NCBI GenBank assembly: GCA_024244705.1
Contig: JAAEOK010000085.1
Location: forward strand, 62,001-126,000
Length of the DNA: 64,000 nucleotides
Reading direction: 5' to 3'
From: Alphaproteobacteria bacterium
Lineage (GTDB): Bacteria; Pseudomonadota; Alphaproteobacteria; JAAEOK01
Positions within the stretch are counted from its first letter, which is position 1; every line of letters begins with the position of its first letter. The notes beneath the pieces were generated by a model. That model searched no databases. It was not told where the DNA came from and worked only from the letters and a program-made list of their open reading frames with translations. Positions 22,978 to 53,000 of the stretch are shown here, one piece after another. The translations under genes and the position numbers were made by a program.

Positions 22978-22993
22978 GCTATTTATACATTCG

Positions 22994-23182
22994 ATGAACG
23001 CGCGTGAATTCCGCCGTTGGCTCAGAAAGCAGGGTTGCACCTTTCAAAACCACAGGGGCGGAAGCGGGCATGTCACGGTCTATCGCGGGGACGGGAAAGC
23101 GCAATTGCCGATGCACGGGAAAGGCAAGGAGCTCGGCACGGGCCTGGTCGCCAAGATCAAGAAGGACTTAGGATTGAAATGA
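22994..23182 (+). CDS. hicA: HicA family mRNA interferase toxin
   Basis: A 62-residue dsRBD-like toxin that cleaves mRNA. It shows MNAREFRRWLRKQGCTFQNHRGGSGHVTVYRG, with the catalytic His26 in the conserved GGSGH context, and the basic tail KGKELGTGLVAKIKKDLGL. It overlaps hicB by 4 bp (ATGA). There is no Shine-Dalgarno upstream of ATG 22994; a TATACA-like element lies just before it, so a leaderless or weakly translated mRNA is possible. Confidence 0.92.
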   Translation: MNAREFRRWLRKQGCTFQNHRGGSGHVTVYRGDGKAQLPMHGKGKELGTGLVAKIKKDLGLK

Positions 23183-23601
23183 TCTCGTATCGTGTGAAAC
23201 TCGAAGCCGACGACAACGGAACATTGCTCGTCACCTGCCCCGATTTGCCGGAGGTGACGACCCACGGTGAGGACGAGGCCGACGCACGCTCGCGCGCGCT
23301 GGACGCCATCGAAGAGGCGATCGCCGCGCGTATCGCCGACCGCGAGCCCATTCCCCCAGCGCGCCGGAAGGGCGAACCGCGGGTTTTCCTGCCGACCCAG
23401 ACCACGCTCAAGGTTCGCCTCTATAACCGCATGCTGGCGGAAGGCGTGAACAAGGCGCAGCTTGCCGAGCGCCTGCACGTCCACCGGCCGCAGGTTGATC
23501 GGCTGCTTGACCTCCGCCACGCGTCTCGTCTCGATCAGTTGGACGCCGCGTTCGGCGCTCTTGGATCCAGAATCGCCGTCGAGGAAGAACAGGTGGCATG
23601 A
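23179..23601 (+). CDS. hicB: HicB family antitoxin
   Basis: A 140-residue antitoxin. The N-terminal RNase H-like HicB domain is seen in ISYRVKLEADDNGTLLVTCPDLPEVTTHGEDEADARSRALDAIEEAI. The C-terminal helix-turn-helix (NKAQLAERLHVHRPQVDRLLDLRHASRLDQLDAAFGAL) should bind the upstream palindromes. The start overlaps the hicA stop, so the two are translationally coupled. It neutralises HicA and represses the operon. Confidence 0.92.
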   Translation: MISYRVKLEADDNGTLLVTCPDLPEVTTHGEDEADARSRALDAIEEAIAARIADREPIPPARRKGEPRVFLPTQTTLKVRLYNRMLAEGVNKAQLAERLHVHRPQVDRLLDLRHASRLDQLDAAFGALGSRIAVEEEQVA

Positions 23602-23783
23602 AATGGGCTCGACGCTTGGATGCCAGGGTCGGCGCCGCGACTCTCGCAGATCTCAATCTGTTGGGATTTGACCCGCACTCATTTCACATAACGCCCGCCA
23701 GGCACTCGATTTAAGTCAATTGCCCGTAGTGCCTAATCTTTGAATGGGATGTCCGAGACGCCCCTTAAAAGGCGATAGTATAC

Positions 23784-23981
23784 TTGACTGAACAAAGCGG
23801 CGTATTATCTAAGGTGGGACAGGCTGGCGCTAGGATTGAGGACCAAGCGATTGCTATCTTCCGCGATTGGGAGGACGGTGTGGATTACAATGGGGGCTCT
23901 GCGGCGTTGGAGCCCGACATTAGACGGTTAGTGAGGCGTCTTCTGGATTTGCGTCAGGAACCATCCCCAAATGTTTCTTAG
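23784..23981 (+). CDS. Element A terminal small ORF (65 aa)
   Basis: This frame begins inside the left terminal repeat (TTG 23784; the upstream codons ATA-GTA-TAC also belong to the open frame). It converges on the HEPN-like gene and overlaps its 3' end by 62 bp. The N-terminal part (VYLTEQSGVLSKVGQAGA, counting from the repeat) matches the equivalent ORF of element B (VYLTNTDQHIPEKGQAGA). This is the main evidence that it is translated. The start codon is uncertain. No known domain. Confidence 0.45.
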   Translation: MTEQSGVLSKVGQAGARIEDQAIAIFRDWEDGVDYNGGSAALEPDIRRLVRRLLDLRQEPSPNVS

Positions 23982-24438
23982 CGAACATGATGAAGTCTTC
24001 CGTGAGTCTCGTGATTTTAGAGGCTTCTGCTGCCAATCGTTCTGGGGTGAACTTTTCCTCCTTCAAATTCACGCCGGATAATTTGATCTTACCCCTTGCC
24101 TTCATCACCTGAGGCACGATCGAGTTTGGTTCGTCACCCTTGGCCCATACAGAGTGAGCAATTGTATTTCTTAAGCTGTAGGCTGCGTTCATTCGTACGA
24201 TTAAACACTCAAATTCTTTTGCGGCTTCTTCATCAAGCTCCGCCAGCTGCACGAATGTACGCATTACGTCTCTGCGGTCGTTGTAACCAATATGCCAAAA
24301 AGCGACCATTGCACGTTCTTCATCTGTTTTGAGTAGGGGCGCTAAAGCGTATAGGATTAAGGTTTCTAGTATCGCCCAGTACATTATGACTGAGCCAAAG
24401 CCTTTAAGGTGATCTTCTGTTACGTGATGTTGGGGCAT
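23920..24438 (-). CDS. HEPN-like protein of element A
   Basis: A 172-residue mostly helical protein. A helix with WAILETLILYALAPLL (21-36) is followed, after about 55 residues, by SLRNTIAHSVW, which contains R90-N91-x3-H95, the Rx4H signature of HEPN ribonucleases. The C-terminus is a further helical segment (ITRLTEDFIMFAKKHLG). The start ATG 24438 shares its bases with the opposite-strand 55-aa gene (CATG), the same geometry as in element B. Only the general fold and active-site motif are recognisable. Inference: an RNA-cleaving or RNA-binding cargo protein. Confidence 0.65.
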   Translation of the reverse strand: MPQHHVTEDHLKGFGSVIMYWAILETLILYALAPLLKTDEERAMVAFWHIGYNDRRDVMRTFVQLAELDEEAAKEFECLIVRMNAAYSLRNTIAHSVWAKGDEPNSIVPQVMKARGKIKLSGVNLKEEKFTPERLAAEASKITRLTEDFIMFAKKHLGMVPDANPEDASLTV

Positions 24439-24604
24439 GGCTAAAATCCCGAGAGACCAAGACGAATACAGCGACAAAGAGGCTGCGAAGCGCCGCGACA
24501 GGGTGTTGGAGCGGATGCTAACGACGCCGCCGAAGCCTCATAAGCAAGACCGGGGGACAAAAGCCCCCCGGTCCACTTCAGGCCAAAAGAAGAAACAAGA
24601 CTAA
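24437..24604 (+). CDS. 55-aa basic protein of element A
   Basis: The protein begins MAKIPRDQDEYSDKEAAK, carries VLERMLTTPPKPHK at about 24-37 and ends in a Lys-rich tail (GQKKKQD). Element B encodes a 55-aa homologue with the same MAK-x-P-x-DQ start and VLRRMLNTPPKPHK core, in the same position and orientation. The two ATGs of the divergent pair overlap. The net charge is strongly positive, so RNA or DNA binding is plausible. The family is not known to me. Confidence 0.6.
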   Translation: MAKIPRDQDEYSDKEAAKRRDRVLERMLTTPPKPHKQDRGTKAPRSTSGQKKKQD

Positions 24605-24620
24605 GGCTATTTTCATAGCC
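24605..24620 (-). terminator. Terminator of the element A transposase/ncRNA transcript
   Basis: Read on the minus strand: GGCTAT-GAAA-ATAGCC, a 6-bp stem with a GNRA-type loop, then TTAGTCTTGTTTCTTCTTTT. The hairpin starts one base after the stop codon of the convergent 55-aa gene, so it may serve as the end of both transcripts. Confidence 0.6.
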
Positions 24621-25021
24621 GTTGCACTGTCCACTTCGACCGTCACACGAAACCTAACCATCGAGTTGCCTCACGGTTAAGCCCGTGGCCACGGGCGCTA
24701 AACCCGAACTGTTTGTATTCGCGCCGTGGCTAGCGCTAGCCCGCTCCTATGCAGCACCTTGGAGTGGGCATCGGCCAAGATTGCCAACCCGCCTTGCTCT
24801 CCTCCCGTTGGGCTGGGCCAATCCTCATTGGCCGCCCTCAGGGTGGCCGAGAGACTGAGCCGGGTCTCGACCTTAAGCCCCCTCGGTTCAGGGGGCCCAG
24901 GGCGCAACCTACGCCCCTAATGCGGTGGAGGTTACCGCCGCAGCGGACCCTTCCCGCACCTAGTTAAATTATGACTCTGGATTATCGTTTGAGTCGAGTC
25001 AGCAAGCGGCGCGTAACGTCT
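24621..25021 (-). ncRNA. Structured non-coding RNA candidate, element A
   Basis: About 400 bases follow the transposase stop with no convincing ORF. In the sense direction a GACTC/GAGTC stem comes first, then an outer stem (arms 24954-24959 and 24920-24925) around a conserved CCGC-TGCG-GCGG hairpin. Two adjacent hairpins follow: 24900-24916 (stem GGGCG/CGCCC) and 24877-24896 (stem GCCCCCT/AGGGGGC). Their loops hold complementary GGTT and AACC. Further downstream are GGCCAAT-GAGG-ATTGGCC, GGCTAGCGCTAGCC and GCCCGTGGCCACGGGC. Element B keeps the first part with compensatory changes. Confidence 0.65.
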
Positions 25022-25990
25022 TTAATTGTAAGCCTTTTGCTGGCTCTCTTGCCCGCTGTTAGTCCGCCGATATGTAAGGCGCTTGCCGGTAATGCCACGG
25101 ATCGCGTCGGCGGCGCGTTCGTCGTCCTCGATGCCGAGTGACGAGCGGCGGTTGTAACGAAAGTCGTATTCGGCAAGGTAGCGGTCCAGGTGCTTTTCTT
25201 GGCAATGCTGATAGACGCCCTTCATGCCGCGCTTGAAGATCGAGAAGTAGCCTTCGATGGTGTTGGTGTGGGCTTCGCCGCGCACGTACTCTTTCTTGCC
25301 GTGGTTGACTCTCAGGTGGCGCGAGAACTCACGCCCGACACGGCGATAGTGATTGGCCTCGTCGGTGGACAGGATGCTTTCACGCCAAACGTTTGTAACC
25401 ACGATATCGCGGATTTCCTTGGTGCCGACTTTATCGACTTTGAAGGAGCGGACGGAACCGCCGCGCTCTACGAGGGAAACGACTTTCTTCATGTCGCCGT
25501 AGCCACGCTTGCGAAGCCATTTACCTTTTTCCGAGTCGTATTCGTAGGGCTGTTTGCCGAGAAAAGTTTCGTCGGCCTCAACAACGCTTCCAGGCCCGCC
25601 CATCGAGCGGTCAAAAAGGGGGCCTTCACGCATGGACTCACGGATGCGATGAGCCATGAACCACGCGGTCTTGTAGGTGACGCCCAACATGCGATGGAGT
25701 TGGTGGGCGCTAATACCTTTTTTGGAGGCGGCCATGAGGTGTGTTGCGAGAACCCATTTATGCAAGGGAACCTTGGAGCGCTCATAGAGGGTGCCGACAC
25801 GGACGGTAAACTTCTTGCGGCAGTCGCCACAGTGATACCAGCCCGGCCCCATCGATTTGCCGCCGAGAACCTTAACCTTGTCCATAGCGCCGCAGTACGG
25901 GCAATAGGGACCATCGGGCCAGCGGATGGCCTCGATATGCTTACGGGCGGCGGTCTCGTTGGTGAATATGGGCTTGGAAAGGTCGGTCAT
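25022..25990 (-). CDS. IS1595-family (ISXO2-like) transposase of element A
   Basis: A 322-residue DDE transposase. An N-terminal zinc ribbon (CPYCG...CGDC, about 31-57) is followed by the KVPLHKWVLATHLMAASKKGISAHQLHRMLGVTYKTAW helix-turn-helix region. The catalytic domain has VEADETFLG, STDEANHY and NTIEGYFSIFKRG. AAGGAG precedes the ATG. A TTGACT-N17-TATCTT promoter candidate starts inside the terminal repeat. Residues from about 75 on are almost identical to the element B enzyme, while many synonymous sites differ. Both are intact. Confidence 0.95.
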   Translation of the reverse strand: MTDLSKPIFTNETAARKHIEAIRWPDGPYCPYCGAMDKVKVLGGKSMGPGWYHCGDCRKKFTVRVGTLYERSKVPLHKWVLATHLMAASKKGISAHQLHRMLGVTYKTAWFMAHRIRESMREGPLFDRSMGGPGSVVEADETFLGKQPYEYDSEKGKWLRKRGYGDMKKVVSLVERGGSVRSFKVDKVGTKEIRDIVVTNVWRESILSTDEANHYRRVGREFSRHLRVNHGKKEYVRGEAHTNTIEGYFSIFKRGMKGVYQHCQEKHLDRYLAEYDFRYNRRSSLGIEDDERAADAIRGITGKRLTYRRTNSGQESQQKAYN

Positions 25991-26050
25991 CGTCTATCTC
26001 CTTGATACTAAAGATAGGTAGTGACTGCCGTTCAGTCAAGTATATAATCA

Positions 26051-26064
26051 CCCCTTAAAAAGGC
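26051..26064. repeat. Junction of the two transposons with overlapping target duplications
   Basis: The right end of element A (...CACC) is followed by CCTTAAAAA and then the left end of element B (GGCGATTG). Bases 26053-26060 are the right target copy of A (CCTTAAAA), and 26054-26061 are the left copy of B (CTTAAAAA). The two duplications overlap by 7 bp, so one element inserted into the target copy of the other, one base out of register. Confidence 0.9.
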
Positions 26065-26123
26065 GATTGTATACTTGACAAATACACGGCTGCTCCCCAT
26101 CTATAGGTTACAAGGAGTTAGCC

Positions 26124-27092
26124 ATGACCAACATTACAGCCGCACGTTACAAGTCAGAGGCCGCAGCCAGGAAGCACCTCGAAGCCATACGCTGGCCCGA
26201 TGGTCCTATCTGCCCGCACTGCGGTTCTGTAGACAACTCGACGCGCATCAAGGGCAAGACCGCACGCCCCGGCCTGTGGTCCTGTAGCGATTGCCGCCAG
26301 CAATTTACGGTGACGGTCGGTACCCTGTTCGAACGCTCCAAGGTGCCCCTGCACAAATGGCTGTTGGCTAATCACCTGATCTGTTCCAGCAAGAAGGGCA
26401 TAAGCTCGCACCAATTGGCCCGCATGTTGGGCGTCACTTACAAAACCGCGTGGTTCATGGCCCATCGTATCCGTGAGTCCATGCGCGAAGGCCCTATGTT
26501 CGATCGCAGCATGGGCGGTCCCGGTAGCGTCGTGGAAGCAGATGAAACCTTTCTCGGCAAACAGCCCTACGAATACGACTCCGACAAGGGTAAATGGCTT
26601 CGCAAACGTGGCTACGGTGACATGAAGAAGGTCGTTTCGCTGGTCGAGCGCGGCGGGTCCGTCCGTTCCTTCAAGGTCGATAAGGTCGGCACCAAGGAAA
26701 TCCGCGATATCGTCGTGACCAACGTCTGGCGTGAAAGCGTCCTCTCGACCGATGAAGCCAATCACTATCGCAATGTGGGCCGTGAATTCTCACGTCACCT
26801 AAGAGTCAACCACGGCAAGAAAGAGTACGTGCGCGGCGAGGCACACACCAACACCATCGAGGGCTATTTCTCGATCTTCAAACGCGGCATGAAGGGCGTC
26901 TATCAGCACTGCCAGGAAAAGCATCTGGACCGCTACCTTGCCGAGTTCGATTTCCGCTACAACCGCCGCTCCGCCCTTGGCATCGAAGATGACCAGCGCG
27001 CCGACGAAGCCCTAAAGGGCATTGAGGGCAAGCGCCTCACCTATCGGCGGACTAACAGCGGGCAAGAAAGCCAGCAAAAGGCTTACAATTAA
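26124..27092 (+). CDS. IS1595-family (ISXO2-like) transposase of element B
   Basis: A 322-residue DDE transposase with a zinc ribbon (CPHCG...CSDC) and catalytic blocks VEADETFLG, STDEANHY and NTIEGYF. AAGGAG precedes ATG 26124. The first 75 residues differ from the element A enzyme (MTNITAARYKSEAAARKHLEAI against MTDLSKPIFTNETAARKHIEAI); the rest is nearly the same. A TTGACA hexamer lies in the terminal repeat. The N-terminal divergence, which includes the zinc ribbon, parallels the different inner repeat sequences. Confidence 0.95.
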   Translation: MTNITAARYKSEAAARKHLEAIRWPDGPICPHCGSVDNSTRIKGKTARPGLWSCSDCRQQFTVTVGTLFERSKVPLHKWLLANHLICSSKKGISSHQLARMLGVTYKTAWFMAHRIRESMREGPMFDRSMGGPGSVVEADETFLGKQPYEYDSDKGKWLRKRGYGDMKKVVSLVERGGSVRSFKVDKVGTKEIRDIVVTNVWRESVLSTDEANHYRNVGREFSRHLRVNHGKKEYVRGEAHTNTIEGYFSIFKRGMKGVYQHCQEKHLDRYLAEFDFRYNRRSALGIEDDQRADEALKGIEGKRLTYRRTNSGQESQQKAYN

Positions 27093-27536
27093 AGAAGTTA
27101 CACAACGCTTGCTGACTCGACTCAAATGATAAACCCGAGTCATAATCCGGCCAGACGTGCAAAGACCCGCTGCGGCGGCAATCTCTGCACGCCTAGGCGC
27201 GGTCCAACCCGCGCCGGGCCGCTTTGTTGGAAGCGGCTCAAGGTTTGGGTGCCTCAACCTCCCCTCAACCCGTTCAGTAGGCTGAACCCAAGTTGGGCGG
27301 ATTGGGACAACACCCCTGCCGACGCACTCACGGATCAGGCCAATTCGTGGGCGCACCCTCCTAGTGGGGTCAATCACTGGGAAACCGGGCACCAAGAACC
27401 TTTTCCGGTTCATGGCGTCATGGGCCGAGAAAGGCTATCGAGAGATGGTTTTCTCGGTAAGCGTGGCGGTCAGGGTCGATGTGGCCGCCATCCTTAGGTG
27501 GATTGCGGTCGCGCTTATCGTCTTGACTTAGACGCA
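27093..27536 (+). ncRNA. Structured non-coding RNA candidate, element B
   Basis: Follows the transposase stop. It keeps the element A plan: GACTCG/CGAGTC stem, outer stem 27156-27161/27186-27191 (CGTGCA/TGCACG), inner CCGC-TGCG-GCGG, hairpin 27196-27215 (GGCGCGG-TCCAAC-CCGCGCC) and hairpin 27216-27239 (GGGCCGCTT-TGTTGG-AAGCGGCTC). Loop bases CCAAC (27204-27208) and GTTGG (27226-27230) are complementary, a predicted kissing contact. More hairpins follow: GTTCAG-TAGG-CTGAAC, the CCGAGAAA/TTTTCTCGG pair, and the GGCGGTC/GGCCGCC pair near the end. The 3' end runs antisense into the 55-aa gene. Confidence 0.65.
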
Positions 27537-27682
27537 GGGGCGGTCTTCGGGCCGCCCCTTCCCTTATCGCCCTTATCGAGCGGCTTATGCGGCTTCGGGG
27601 GCGTGTTCAGCATCCGCCGCAACACCGCATCTTCGCGCGCGCTGTCATTACTTTTGCCTTGATCTTTTGGGGGCTTTGCCAT
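27515..27682 (-). CDS. 55-aa basic protein of element B
   Basis: A homologue of the element A 55-aa protein and exactly the same length. Start MAKPPKDQGKSNDSARED, core VLRRMLNTPPKPHK at about 20-33, tail rich in Gly, Lys and Arg (KGDKGRGGPKTAPASKSRR). ATG 27682 overlaps the ATG of the HEPN-like gene (CATG). The basic, low-complexity tail suggests nucleic-acid binding. Conservation between two diverged elements supports that it is translated. Confidence 0.6.
   Translation of the reverse strand: MAKPPKDQGKSNDSAREDAVLRRMLNTPPKPHKPLDKGDKGRGGPKTAPASKSRR
27537..27558 (+). terminator. UUCG-capped hairpin at the end of the element B ncRNA
   Basis: A 9-bp stem from GGGGCGGTC and GGCCGCCCC around TTCG, followed by TTCCCTTATC. 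It lies inside the 3' end of the opposite-strand 55-aa gene. It is a likely 3' end or stability element of the non-coding RNA; the T tract is weak. Confidence 0.5.
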
Positions 27683-28211
27683 GCCTGAAACAATCATAAA
27701 CCTAGAGCCGATAAACGAAATTCCGACCTATGCCGAACCAATCATTCGCGCCATTGGGATCGGACACCTCAGTTGGGGAAAACTCGAACAGCATTTAGAC
27801 ATCCTTCTTAACGCTGTCAGCAATGAGCGCTATGTAACCGGCGCAACGCAATTGCCCAAAACCTCTTTTCGCCTGAAAGCCAAACTATTCAAACAGATTT
27901 ATGCAGAACATCCGAATTTTAAGGTTGTGCACCAAATAGCTGGGCCGGTTTGTGATGGGCTAAAGAAGGCGAACACCAGCCGCGTTCGGCTAACGCACTC
28001 CAATGTCCAAGGATTCTCACCCGGCCCTCCAGCAGCCATCAGCGTCAGGATAACAGATTTCAATGGCCCTGATTTACGAACCAAAGACGGCTCATGGACA
28101 CTTCAGGATATCGAAGATTTTGTCTCGCTTCTGTCTCACTTGAGCACGGATTTTGGCAAAATTAGCAAACTGACTATGAACGAAGCCTTCCGGAAATCTC
28201 TCGAAATATAG
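27681..28211 (+). CDS. HEPN-like protein of element B
   Basis: A 176-residue helical protein. GIGHLSWGKLEQHLDILLNAV (26-46) corresponds to the W-x2-LE-x2-L helix of the element A protein. TSRVRLTHSNV supplies R101-x4-H106, matching the HEPN Rx4H pattern in spacing though not with the usual Asn after Arg. LQDIEDFVSLLSHLS near the C-terminus matches the final helix of the A protein. Overall identity is low, so the two are distant homologues. A GGGGGC ribosome-site candidate precedes ATG 27681. Confidence 0.6.
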   Translation: MPETIINLEPINEIPTYAEPIIRAIGIGHLSWGKLEQHLDILLNAVSNERYVTGATQLPKTSFRLKAKLFKQIYAEHPNFKVVHQIAGPVCDGLKKANTSRVRLTHSNVQGFSPGPPAAISVRITDFNGPDLRTKDGSWTLQDIEDFVSLLSHLSTDFGKISKLTMNEAFRKSLEI

Positions 28212-28410
28212 CTATCCCAAACTCAAGGGGTAAGGCTATGGGTGCGTGATCGTCTACGCCGTTTGCCGCGTCCACGTATTGACAGATCATTCTCTCGATT
28301 TTAGCCGCTAGCTCAGGAGTCATTCCCTCAGGAAGCGGGACTTCCCTAAACTGTGCGCCGGCCTGTCCCTTTTCAGGTATGTGTTGGTCTGTATTTGTCA
28401 AGTATACCAT
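28174..28410 (-). CDS. Element B terminal small ORF (78 aa)
   Basis: It starts at ATG 28410, inside the right terminal repeat (MVYLTNTDQ is encoded by it). It runs inward and overlaps the HEPN-like gene end by 38 bp. The N-terminus shares VYLT and K-GQAGA with the element A counterpart. The rest (FREVPLPEGMTPELAAKIERMICQYVDAANGV...) has normal protein composition. Transcription would have to start outside the element, that is, from the recA side. Confidence 0.5.
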   Translation of the reverse strand: MVYLTNTDQHIPEKGQAGAQFREVPLPEGMTPELAAKIERMICQYVDAANGVDDHAPIALPLEFGIAIFREISGRLRS

Positions 28411-28422
28411 CCCCCTTAAAAA

Positions 28423-28437
28423 GAACATTTACAGAAC
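28423..28437. promoter_or_regulatory. LexA (SOS) box of recA
   Basis: GAAC-ATTTACA-GAAC is an exact alphaproteobacterial LexA site (GAAC-N7-GAAC). It begins on the base after the right target duplication of transposon B and lies 66 bp before the recA start. Binding by LexA and induction on DNA damage follow from established knowledge of this motif. Confidence 0.8.
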
Positions 28438-28503
28438 AGAACAAAACGTGTACATTGCGCCGATTGCAGATTCAGAACCCGTATGGAATAAGGGGGATCC
28501 CCG

Positions 28504-29598
<1,095 letters not shown>

Positions 29599-48652: not shown

Positions 48653-48686
48653 AGCGAATGGAGTTCCAGGGCTCCTAATCCGGTGC

Positions 48687-48832
48687 CCGCTTAGCTCGTC
48701 GCGGGGCGGTCGAAAGTTGGGTCCACCACTGGGTCGACGGGGCGCCGACCGCGATCTCTCGGGTGACGAAATCCACGTTCATCCGCAACGCCATCGGCAT
48801 CAACCCGAGGACGGTCGTTACCGTGGTCAGGT
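48687..48832 (-). pseudogene. Fragment of a second RND transporter gene (3' end)
   Basis: These 146 bp match the 3' end of the RND gene downstream: 48687-48712 equals 50092-50117, and 48713-48832 matches 50244-50363 with only a few substitutions. The 126 bp in between are missing, and the missing part is bounded by the direct repeat CGGTCG (50111-50116 and 50238-50243). It is a duplicated and then internally deleted remnant. Confidence 0.85.
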
Positions 48833-49115
48833 GCGGCGCGATCGAGGCAGACGCGCCGACCCTCTGGTCGTCTGGATGACGTCATTCCGCTCGGCGACAC
48901 CTATCGGCGAGTAATTGAGGTCCAAAGAGTTGTGATCCTGCATCGCTAATCAAACCGCGATGGGGTCGCATCAAATTGAAATCACTCTATTTTTTTCGGG
49001 TCAAGACTGGAAACCCCGTGGATCAATGGTACCACTTATGGTAACTTGGACTGAATAGTCTTGGTGTGACGCAACGAGCACGGTGTCCTTCGGATAACAC
49101 CAAAGGGAGGCCAGA
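48833..49115. other. Non-coding stretch in a decayed region
   Basis: This stretch holds no ORF that I can support. It is less GC-rich than its surroundings, with a run of T at about 48990-48996, and ends with the GGGAGG ribosome site of the DUF1090 gene. It lies between two copies of the RND 3' end. Confidence 0.5.
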
Positions 49116-49565
49116 ATGAATTTGGGGAAATTGATACCTATCGCATCGGCGGCACTTTTTTTCTCCGGCCCTAGTATTGCGTCGATGGATCGATGTATGG
49201 ATTTGACCGGCTGTGAAAGAAGAATGTGTATTCTCGAGGTGCAAAGAGAGTACGCACAACAATATGGCAATCAATATCGGGATGCCGGCCTGCAATAGGC
49301 GTTGTCAGCCGTGAATCAGTATTGTGATGACGGCGATTTGAGGGATCAACAGGAAGAAAAAATCGCGGAACGAGGGCGTGCTGTTTGGTTCTATCAAGAC
49401 GAGGTTGAAGCAGCCGAAGCTAATCTAACCGCAGTGAAAGCGAGTGGAAATGAAAAAGAGATAAGAAAAGCGGAAAAGAATTTAGAAAAAACCCAGGGCA
49501 AACTTCAAAAAGCAAAAGAAAAATTGGAAAAAGACATAGAAAAATACTCTAGCATTTGGCAGTAA
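49116..49565 (+). pseudogene. DUF1090 (YqjC-like) gene with in-frame TAG
   Basis: One frame of 150 codons split by TAG at 49296-49298. Before it: a signal peptide and DRCMDLTGCERRMCILEVQREYAQQYGNQYRDAGLQ. After it: ALSAVNQYCDDGDLRDQQEEKIAERGRAVWFYQDEVEAAEANLTAVKASGNEKEIRKAEKNLEKTQ. Together they match DUF1090 periplasmic coiled-coil proteins (paired cysteines, GL-x-x-AL-x-V-x-x-C-x-D, heptads). A GGGAGG site precedes ATG 49116. The DNA is A-rich, unlike the region, which points to transfer. It is probably a nonsense mutant. Confidence 0.75.
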
Positions 49566-49724
49566 TTTGATTGCCTGGAATCTGACGCAAACCGAATACG
49601 TTCCATCACGCTCTTGTAAGCCCGCGGATGACGAGACGGATGCTCGCGACGGTGGTTCAAGGCTCGGCGGTGGCATCGTGGCTCGACGCGCACCCACCGC
49701 CAGGTGACGGTTGAGGGGATGCCA

Positions 49725-49930
49725 GTATTATCGACGCGCCGCCGGTATAAATTCCGCTGCGCTATTGCGTAAGGTGGAAATACCCGCCGCAACATCCGCA
49801 ATTGGCCGTCGATGGCGCCATATTGTACAGGGTGTTCACTGCATTTCGCTCGGCCGCCGTCGGCGGTCGACCCCGCGCCGACTGGGTCGGGTATGTGCGG
49901 CGGCGCTGGCGCCCATTCTTCGTAGGTCAT
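49725..49930 (-). pseudogene. IS5-family transposase relic, N-terminal part
   Basis: Read from ATG 49930: TYEEWAPAPPHIPDP in one frame, then GRPPTAAERNAVNTLYNMA in the next frame, then VFPPYAIAQRNLYRRRVDNTG back in the first. This is the order of conserved blocks of IS5/IS1031-type transposases (EEW...PHIP, GRP-x-T...R-x-V(V/L)NA-x-x-Y, FPP...V-x-x-x-(F/Y)-x-x-W). At least two frameshifts and the missing catalytic part show that it is dead. Confidence 0.6.
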
Positions 49931-50094
49931 ATCACTTGCGACGGGCGGGCCTAAATAGTCTCACTCGGCATGGGCGGTCCCGAGCCCTATCTTGCGTCCG
50001 CCTCGCTATCTGGGCGCATGGAAGGAACCGCAGTCAGCAGATTCCACTCAATTCATCTGCGGTCGGATTCTAAAGCCGTACGCCTGGTGGCCGC

Positions 50095-53000
50095 TTAGCT
50101 CGTCGCGGGGCGGTCGCGGCCGATCCTGCGCCGACGCCGGTCTTGCCGCCATTCCGCGACATTGGTGCGGAGCATCAGCGCGGACGGGGTCACGATCAAC
50201 GTCAGCACGGTGGCGAAGCTTAGGCCGAACACAATGGCGGTCGAGAGTTGGGTCCACCATTGGGTCGACGGGGCGCCGATCGCGACCTCTCGGGTAGCGA
50301 AGTCCACGTTCATCCGCAACACCATCGGCATCAACCCGAGGACGGTCGTTACCGTGGTCAGGAGAACCGGCCTGAGGCGCTGTGCGCCGGTGCGCAAGAT
50401 CGCCTGACGGGCGGACGAGGTTCCGTGTTTGAGGCGGTCGAAAGTATCGATCAGGACGATGTTGTTGTTGACCACGATCCCGGCCAGCGCAATAACCCCG
50501 ACCCCAGACATGACGATGCCGAACGGCTCGCCGATAACCATCAGCCCAATCATCACGCCGATGGTCGACATGACGACCGCGGTCAGGATGAGGAACGCGC
50601 TGTAGAACGAATTGAATTGGGTCACCAGAATTATCGCCATGATAAACAGGGCGATGCCGAAGGCTTTCAGGAGGAAGTCCTGCGCTTCTTTCTGCTCTTC
50701 GTCTTCGCCCTTGAACGCGATGTCGACCCGGGGGTCGATGTCGACGGTTTCGAGCCAAGCCTGGATTTCCTTGAGCTTGGTGTCCGCGAGAACGCCTTCG
50801 CGCACATCCGATTTGACCGTCAGCACGCGGTGGCCGTCGATGCGATTGATTGTGCCGACCTTCGGTTGGGCGGTCCGCGTTACGAAATTGCTGATCGGCA
50901 CCAAACCGGATTCGGTGGCGACGCGGATCTGGTCGAGCTGGTCCATGGTCCGGTACGCTTCGGGATAGCGCACCACGATATCGATCTCATCGCGGCTGTC
51001 GTCGGGCCGATAGGTACTGATTTCGAAACCGTTGGTGACCAACTTGATCGAGTCGCCGATTGTCGTGACGTCGGCGCCGAATTTTGCCGCCTGCGACCGG
51101 TCGACGGCGATCTCCCACTCGATTCCGGGTATCGGGCGGCTGTCCTCGATGTTGGTCAGGCCGGACATCTCATCGAGTCGTGCGCGGATGAGGCCGACGG
51201 TGTCGTCGAGCAATTCCGTGTCGCGTCCGCTGACCTCGATCTGGATCGCCTTGCCCACCGGGGGGCCCGCTTCTTCCTCCCGGGTTTCGACGGAAATTCC
51301 CGCGATACCGGCGGTTTCCGAAAGTATCTCATCGAGGATCTGGACGGCCGGCCGGCGCTGATCCCAGGGAACGAATTGTAACTGGATAACTCCGATAATG
51401 TCCTCGGCATCCTCCGACGGGCCTTCGCTTTGTCCGGTCGTCGCGTAGATCGTTTCGATCTCGCCATGCTCGCGGTTGAGGTTCAGGACGACGACCTCGA
51501 CTTCGCGCACCAATCCGTCTTGCTCGTCGATCGACAGATTGCCGCGCGCATGGATTTGCAAAGCCGCCCGCTCCGGTTCGACGTTGGGGAAAAATTCGAT
51601 GCCGTGGCCAAATTTCGCATAGGCCCATTGCACGCCGATCAGGACAAGCGCGGCCGCGATCAGAATCTTGCCGGGGTGATCCAGGGCACGGTCGAGCAAC
51701 CGCAGATATCGCCCCGTCAATCCCCGTACCTTGGCAAGGTCGGCGTCGCCATCGGCCGCCAACGCCTTCATCGTGTCTTCGTCAACGGCGCCGCCGGGCC
51801 GGCCCATGATCGATCCCAGCGTCGGCACGAAAATCAACGCCATCAAGAGGGAGGCCGACAGCGTCGCGATCAGCGTGATCGGCAAGAATTTCATGAACTC
51901 GCCGACCACGCCCGGCCAGAACAGGAGTGGCAGGAAAGCGGCCAAAGTGGTGGCGGTCGACGCCGTGATCGGCCATGCCATACGTTTGGCCGCCAACCCG
52001 TAAGCCTCGCGCCGATCGACGCCCTCGGTCATCTTGCGGTCGGCGTATTCGGTGACGACGATCGCACCGTCGACCAGCATACCGACAGCAAGGATGAGGC
52101 TGAAAAGGACGACGATGTTAATGGTCAAACCCATCACCGAAAGCAGCAGGATAGCGGCCAGAAACGAGCCCGGTACGGCGATGCCGACGAGGGTTGCGGT
52201 GCGCAGGCCGAGCGCGGCGACGACCACGATCATCACCAGCAGCACCGCGCTGATGACATTGTTCTGGAGGTCGCGCAGCATGTCGCGGATCTGCGTCGAG
52301 CGGTCCTGGGAATAGCTGATATCGATGACATCGGGCCAGTTCCCGCGCTCATCCTCGACCGCGGCACGAACCAACTCGATGGTTTCAATGATGTTTTCGC
52401 CGGTCCGCTTGGAGACCGCGAGCGTCACCGCATTCTGCCCGTTGAGGCGTGAATAGCCCTCGGCGTCCTCGTAACCGCGCCGCGCGGTGGCGATATCCTG
52501 AAGCGTGACGGCCGCATCGCCGTTGACCTTGATCGGCATGTCCAATATTTGCCGGACGTCCTCGAACAGGCCCGGCACCTTGATCGCAAAGCGCCCGTGG
52601 CCGGTATCGAGGTTGCCGGCCGCAATGAGCCGGTTGCTGCGATCCACCGCACCGGTAATTTCCCCTTCCGACAGGCCGTAGCTTTCGACCAGCAGCGGAT
52701 CGATGATGATCTCGACTTGCTCCTCGCGATCGCCGGGAATGGTCGCCTCGAGCACGCTCGAGATCGTCTCCAGGCGGTCCTGAAGCTCTCTTGCGAGGCG
52801 GCGCAAGGTTCGCTCGGGCACTTCGCCGGAGAGGGTCACGAGAATGATCGGGAACAGGCTGAAATTGACTTCGTTGACGGTCGGTTCCTCGGCCTCCTCG
52901 GGGAGGTCCGGTTCCGCGTCGTCGACTTTTTCGCGGACGTCGTCGAGCGCGGCATCGACGTCGAACCCGGCCTCGAATTCGAGGATCACGTTGGCGCCAC

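Follow-up and report, generated by a model that had tools for sequence, protein, structure and literature searches.

Paired IS1595-type transposons with a probably HEPN-like cargo family in a slot that sister elements fill with known defence genes

The 64,000-nucleotide stretch of alphaproteobacterial DNA analysed here (contig JAAEOK010000085.1; referred to as the window) contains a pair of abutting IS1595-type transposons, element A at 23771-26052 and element B at 26062-28414, which lie head to head and each comprise an open transposase gene, TIRs, and 8-bp target duplications (TSDs) that are typical of the IS1595 family. Element A is a transporter IS of 2282 bp with its transposase on the minus strand, bounded by TIRs at 23771-23793 (cargo end, plus strand) and 26030-26052 (transposase end, minus strand) and by the TSD CCTTAAAA at 23763-23770 with a second copy at 26053-26060. 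Element B is a second transporter IS of this type (2353 bp, plus strand) with TIRs of its own and the TSD CTTAAAAA at 26054-26061 and 28415-28422. The right TSD of element A overlaps the left TSD of element B at the junction, so that one of the two elements has landed next to, or within, the target duplication of its neighbour. The transposases of element A (25022-25990, minus strand) and element B (26124-27092, plus strand) are each 322 aa long, 84% identical to each other, and score above the cut-offs of PF12762 (114 and 116.6 bits; cut-off 27), PF12760 (37.8 and 57.2 bits; cut-off 25.4), and NF033547 (195.5 and 196.4 bits; cut-off 75). Their residues D140, D210, and E246, which we take to be the catalytic DDE/DDN residues of IS1595 transposases, belong to the columns that are invariant in an alignment of 9 transposases.

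Just left of element A lie two small plus-strand ORFs (22980-23601) that look to us like a HicA/HicB toxin-antitoxin pair. On the other side (28423-29598), around 90 bp separate the end of element B from an ORF that we presume to be recA, so that the double insertion sits in the upstream region of this gene and may affect its expression.

Between transposase and cargo-end TIR, each element carries two further genes that are read divergently from a common CATG. In element A, the cargo gene (P0001, 172 aa; 23920-24438, minus strand) and a small gene for a conserved basic protein (P0003, 55 aa with an RMLTTPPKPHK motif; 24437-24604, plus strand) overlap with their start codons inside the CATG at 24436-24439. 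Element B has the same arrangement, with the CATG at 27680-27683, the cargo gene (P0002, 176 aa) at 27681-28211 on the plus strand, and the small gene (55 aa counted from the CATG start) at 27515-27682 on the minus strand. An earlier note on this DNA had proposed cargo A to be a helical HEPN-like protein with an RNxxxH motif and a distant homologue in element B. The stretch SLRNTIAHSVW with R90 and H95 is indeed present in cargo A (RNTIAH codons at 24154-24171, minus strand), its counterpart in cargo B is RVRLTH (R101 to H106), and both proteins are detected as members of one family by leave-one-out HMMs (E 4.3e-22 for cargo A and 5.7e-13 for cargo B).

Relatives were collected by a search with a transposase alignment, from which we took the best 80 of 573 confirmed candidates in named genomes and the best 80 of 264 confirmed candidates in viral contigs; together with elements A and B, these form a set of 162 loci. 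HMMs of the cargo and the small gene, trained on 37 pairs and then rebuilt, recognise the HEPN-like gene in 77 of these loci, the small gene in 117, and both in 70. The viral-classed contigs (L107 to L186) hold many such transposons, with HEPN-like cargo in 37 of the best 80 of 264 candidates, and these may be true phage insertions or misbinned host DNA.

The cargo proteins are extremely diverse. We aligned 68 of 76 of them (46 of the 68 in a further alignment) and left out 8 that are truncated or short (L039, L045, L109, and L175), duplicates (L126, L130, and L145), or weak and on the other strand (L095). At a mean column identity of 10%, the only columns invariant in all 68 are M1, R90, and H95. 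A lone R-x4-H in a single protein might be accidental, but the motif of this family is not. In the form R[NDHGV]xxxH, it is present in 76 of the 77 family members from transposase loci, and R-x4-H was found at all 30 independent loci of a class-wide profile search. Leave-one-out profiles detect 68 of 68 members at E<1e-6, while at a threshold of 1e-3 only 1 of 68 reversed and none of 68 shuffled sequences pass. As single sequences, cargo A and cargo B have no match in Pfam, NCBIfam, and PADLOC (E 1 for all three) or in PHROGs; cargo A also has none in viral contigs, genome contigs, or plasmids, and within its own order it matches in its own genome only. Searches with the 68 members gave isolated weak PADLOC matches of 1/68 each and none that was consistent, and the family profile, run against PDB sequences, returned coiled-coil-like noise only. 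The Pfam HEPN models, PF18735 included, match none of the 68 at E 0.01, and we therefore regard the proteins as an unlisted RNxxxH HEPN-like family.

With the family profile, members were found in 48 of the 385 class genomes and in 42 of 398 genomes drawn from the phylum, with 12 of those 42 lying outside the class. Among the 30 independent class-wide loci, 15 have the small gene, 10 have the transposase, and 14 have neither within about 1.5 kb, so that the family also occurs outside these elements.

The assignment to the HEPN fold draws on structure models and profile comparison. The single-chain AlphaFold2 models of cargo A (pLDDT 89.0, pTM 0.82) and cargo B (pLDDT 87.1, pTM 0.81) are confident and mainly helical, as the earlier note had stated for cargo A, and the motif of model A closes a long helix (residues 70-95). 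A structure comparison, which this note had suggested as a check, lists HEPN proteins for model A and none for model B. For model A, HEPN proteins make up 6 of the top 8 VIA-align rows, namely 2hsb (Z 7.8), 4rgp (Csm6; 7.3), 7ae9 (HEPN toxin; 7.0), 6tug (6.6), 7ae8 (6.3), and 7ae6 (6.2), all with Z below 8 and hence in the middling range of this program for bundles, which is not decisive alone. The matches to Csm6 presumably fall on its HEPN domain. The 50 VIA-align rows of model B contain generic bundles and no HEPN protein, and Foldseek gave no match under E 0.001 for either model; these rows do not exclude an HEPN fold for cargo B, which would be HEPN-like only through its homology to cargo A. 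In profile-profile comparison, the family aligns on the motif with five RiboL-PSP HEPN proteins of PF18735 (E 1.6e-4, probability 50.6%), while reversed and unrelated decoys in the same orientation reach at most 0.4%; comparisons with 6 PF18734 and 15 PF05168 proteins were not significant. Since the structural neighbours of model A and the profile match come together with the invariant R/H pair, we consider it very probable that the family is HEPN-like, and its members are likely to be catalytically active.

The small gene encodes a basic-tailed protein of about 50 aa with the motif RMLxTPPKPHK, lies between transposase and cargo on the opposite strand, and is read against the transposase in 109 of 117 loci. 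Among 101 unique homologues, the mean entropy at codon positions 1 to 3 is 1.45, 1.25, and 1.78 bits, and at 8 conserved residues it is 0.82, 0.47, and 1.58 bits. Third positions vary across the T-P-P-x-P residues with positions 1 and 2 fixed, which shows that the small gene is coding; the same codon pattern rules out that the ORF is a mere shadow of another signal. No Pfam family matches the small proteins of elements A and B above its cut-off. Searching with the small gene alone gave 30 loci with a transposase nearby in 16 and an HEPN-like gene in 14, and the weakest rows of this search are probably due to chance. At one locus (L090:7609), a second small TPP-type gene lies around 2.6 kb beyond the transposase and has its CATG in common with a 256-aa ORF that runs divergently and is of a different kind.

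Overlap of the divergent starts inside CATG, as in elements A and B, is found in 54 of 63 unique adjacent pairs of HEPN-like and small gene, and the next commonest ATG/ATG offset accounts for 5 of 63. In 59 of the 63 pairs, the two genes share their relative frame where about a third would be expected. The misses in this count include L029 and L031, which fell to a limit of the start search and have the CATG by an earlier count (50 of 58 pairs), and six two-gene loci that are duplicates or not adjacent divergent pairs stand outside the 63. A selection artefact can be ruled out, as among the 27 pairs outside the first HMM training 20 have the CATG and 23 the same frame. An SD-like sequence, located inside the first codons of the small gene, precedes the start codon of the HEPN-like gene in 24 of 48 unique contexts; control windows show one in 20 of 240 cases. 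Before the small gene itself, such a sequence is seen in 14 of 48 contexts compared to 33 of 240 controls, and before transposases in 18 of 22.

Cargo identity does not follow chassis identity in these elements. Transposases that are 80-86% identical carry HEPN-like proteins of 11-19% identity, with random pairs averaging 16%, and identities are uncorrelated between transposase and HEPN-like protein (r 0.07), transposase and small protein (0.11), or small and HEPN-like protein (-0.03; n=48 throughout). In most related pairs, DNA homology ends within around 100 bp of the transposase stop codon and often picks up again within the small gene and near the far TIR. Median identities across 82 related element pairs, which include repeats of duplicate loci, are 0.78 for the transposase, 0.43 for the gap, 0.74 for the small-gene core, 0.42 for the cargo, and 0.63 for the far end, compared to 0.35 (gap), 0.58 (core), 0.48 (cargo), and 0.56 (far end) in background pairs. 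We take these alignments to mean that the cargo is replaced and the small gene retained, though very fast cargo divergence would strictly be a conceivable alternative.

In line with an exchangeable slot, other genes occupy this position in sister elements. Of 47 loci with the small gene and no HEPN-like gene, 26 have an ORF on the same strand that ends at or near the small-gene start, and several of these codirectional ORFs overlap the small gene by 1 or 4 nt. Pfam searches with 106 other ORFs found DUF3800 (4), GmrSD_N (3), SocA_Panacea (3), DUF1828 (3), and PIN (3) besides methylases, AIPR, HEPN_MAE_28990, and RiboL-PSP HEPN (1 each), and loci on plasmids have PIN/VapC cargo. PADLOC identified NsnA (3), PDC-M24B (3), AbiU, BstA, PD-Lambda-5, and others. 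Several PADLOC matches, known defence genes among them, lie in TIR-bounded elements, as for AbiU (L112, E 2.9e-145), BstA (L092, E 5.8e-119), NsnA (L054, and also found at L032), PD-Lambda-2_C (L101), MTase_II (L123), PDC-M04A (L137), and PDC-M24B (L128). In Sphingomonas flavalba, one IS1595 element with TIRs at its ends (L102:5086-7363) has adjacent PD-Lambda-5 A and B genes and thus a complete two-gene PD-Lambda-5-like system. In the two Mesorhizobium elements L092 and L101, the transposase DNA is 85% identical while the defence genes, BstA and PD-Lambda-2_C, are unrelated. PADLOC matches were obtained for 9 of 20 individually placed proteins, a share that is not an unbiased estimate because these proteins were picked mainly for length.

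Taken as a whole, these elements are with moderate probability defence-carrying transporter ISs with a swappable slot, the commonest cargo of which would be a toxic HEPN ribonuclease. The chassis would consist of two TIRs, a DDE transposase, and the basic protein of about 50 aa read against the transposase, together with one interchangeable slot, and the transposase and TIRs would serve to spread a single defence gene. We infer that the HEPN-like cargo is most likely an RNase and serves as an effector against phages, of the abortive-infection or toxin type, which would arrest or kill the infected cell. Because both starts share the palindrome CATG, the 5' end of each gene's message is antisense to the start of the other; the overlap may thereby silence the cargo, limiting HEPN translation until transcription shifts, and HEPN expression would be low and tied to transcription of the small gene or to read-through.

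The role of the small protein is where this reading parts from a dedicated toxin-antitoxin pair, in which the small protein would be the specific antitoxin of an HEPN toxin and the module would stabilise the transposon, comparable to the TA pairs of Tn3 transposons (one of them HEPN-MNT; PMC7157771). Such pairing would fit the exact abutment of the genes and the presence of the small gene in 70 of 77 HEPN-like loci. However, the small gene is also found in 47 of 85 loci that lack the HEPN-like gene, often right behind a cargo gene of another family, which makes a specific partnership doubtful; its core stays alike during cargo exchange, its identities do not follow those of the HEPN-like proteins, and it is not recognisable at 15 of the 30 independent HEPN-like loci. 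We therefore consider this alternative unlikely, and the small protein, retained as it is alongside unrelated cargo, is more likely to serve the chassis, regulating cargo or transposition, than to be an HEPN-specific antitoxin.

It seems even less probable that the R-x4-H motif is kept for folding or nucleic-acid binding in a catalytically silent helical protein. While the middling fold match of model A and the failure of model B to match HEPN proteins would agree with that, R and H are the sole invariant residues besides the initiator at such low column identity, as would be expected of active-site residues. Least probable of all appears to us that the HEPN-like protein targets the transposon itself, e.g., by cutting transposase mRNA to dampen transposition. 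At 75 of the 77 loci, cargo gene and transposase share a strand, so that read-through would couple the two, but 85 of the 162 loci do without it and have unrelated genes in its place, several of them known defence genes, and its sequence varies independently of the transposase. Beyond defence-carrying transporter ISs as such, we tentatively put forward a wider picture of chassis and cartridges, in which a large clade of IS1595 elements would spread single anti-phage genes by swapping them at the small-gene start, with the small protein locking or licensing the expression of dangerous cargo of any kind and a fast-turning, undescribed HEPN RNase family as the commonest cartridge. Divergent cargo would be joined by the CATG and codirectional cargo by a stop/start junction that often overlaps.

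IS1595 elements with passenger genes are called transporter ISs (tIS) in excerpts of PMC8496243 and PMC3129680, which cite Siguier, Gagnevin and Chandler 2009. Elements A and B share with these the IS1595-type transposase, the TIRs, and passenger genes between the transposase and one TIR, whereas the HEPN-like family, the small gene, the CATG overlap, and the defence content of relatives go beyond the passenger genes that these excerpts mention. Tn3-family transposons carry TA modules including one HEPN-MNT in TnSod9 and thus likewise an HEPN-type gene on a DDE transposon (PMC7157771, in excerpts). This case concerns another transposon family with an MNT nucleotidyltransferase partner and placement at res, as far as these excerpts go, unlike the small basic protein, divergent start overlap, and exchanged cargo of elements A and B. 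The HEPN-MNT toxin (7ae9, 7ae8, and 7ae6) resembles model A (Z 6.2-7.0) at 8-9% identity, but elements A and B have no MNT gene and the 55-aa basic protein as partner instead. RiboL-PSP HEPN (PF18735) aligns with the family at RNxxxH and the preceding helix, yet none of the 68 members reaches this model at E 0.01. AbiU, BstA, NsnA, and PD-Lambda-5 occupy the same slot in sister elements, though these proteins are unrelated to the HEPN-like cargo. In the open-access literature searched, we found neither the HEPN-like family nor the small gene described, and nothing on the overlapping starts or the defence content; excerpts of PMC3942029 and PMC12561309 contain nothing on HEPN cargo.

If our reading is true, a large unannotated family of HEPN ribonucleases would travel together with known anti-phage genes on elements of 2-3 kb that are among the smallest mobile carriers known, and new defence genes could be found by using the small TPPKPH protein and the CATG junction next to it as a marker. 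As a gene architecture, the start-codon overlap is unusual; 54 of 63 pairs retain it despite their strong divergence, and its regulatory meaning can be put to a direct test.

The genome of elements A and B holds further traces of this transposon group: a third IS1595 transposase is accompanied by a small TPPQP gene and other cargo on contig C108 (L018:4420-5855), and contig C33 (L019) has a fragment of a transposase. Elsewhere in the window, direct repeats of 127 nt (94% identical) and 31 nt are spaced around 1.4-1.5 kb apart at 48682-50362.
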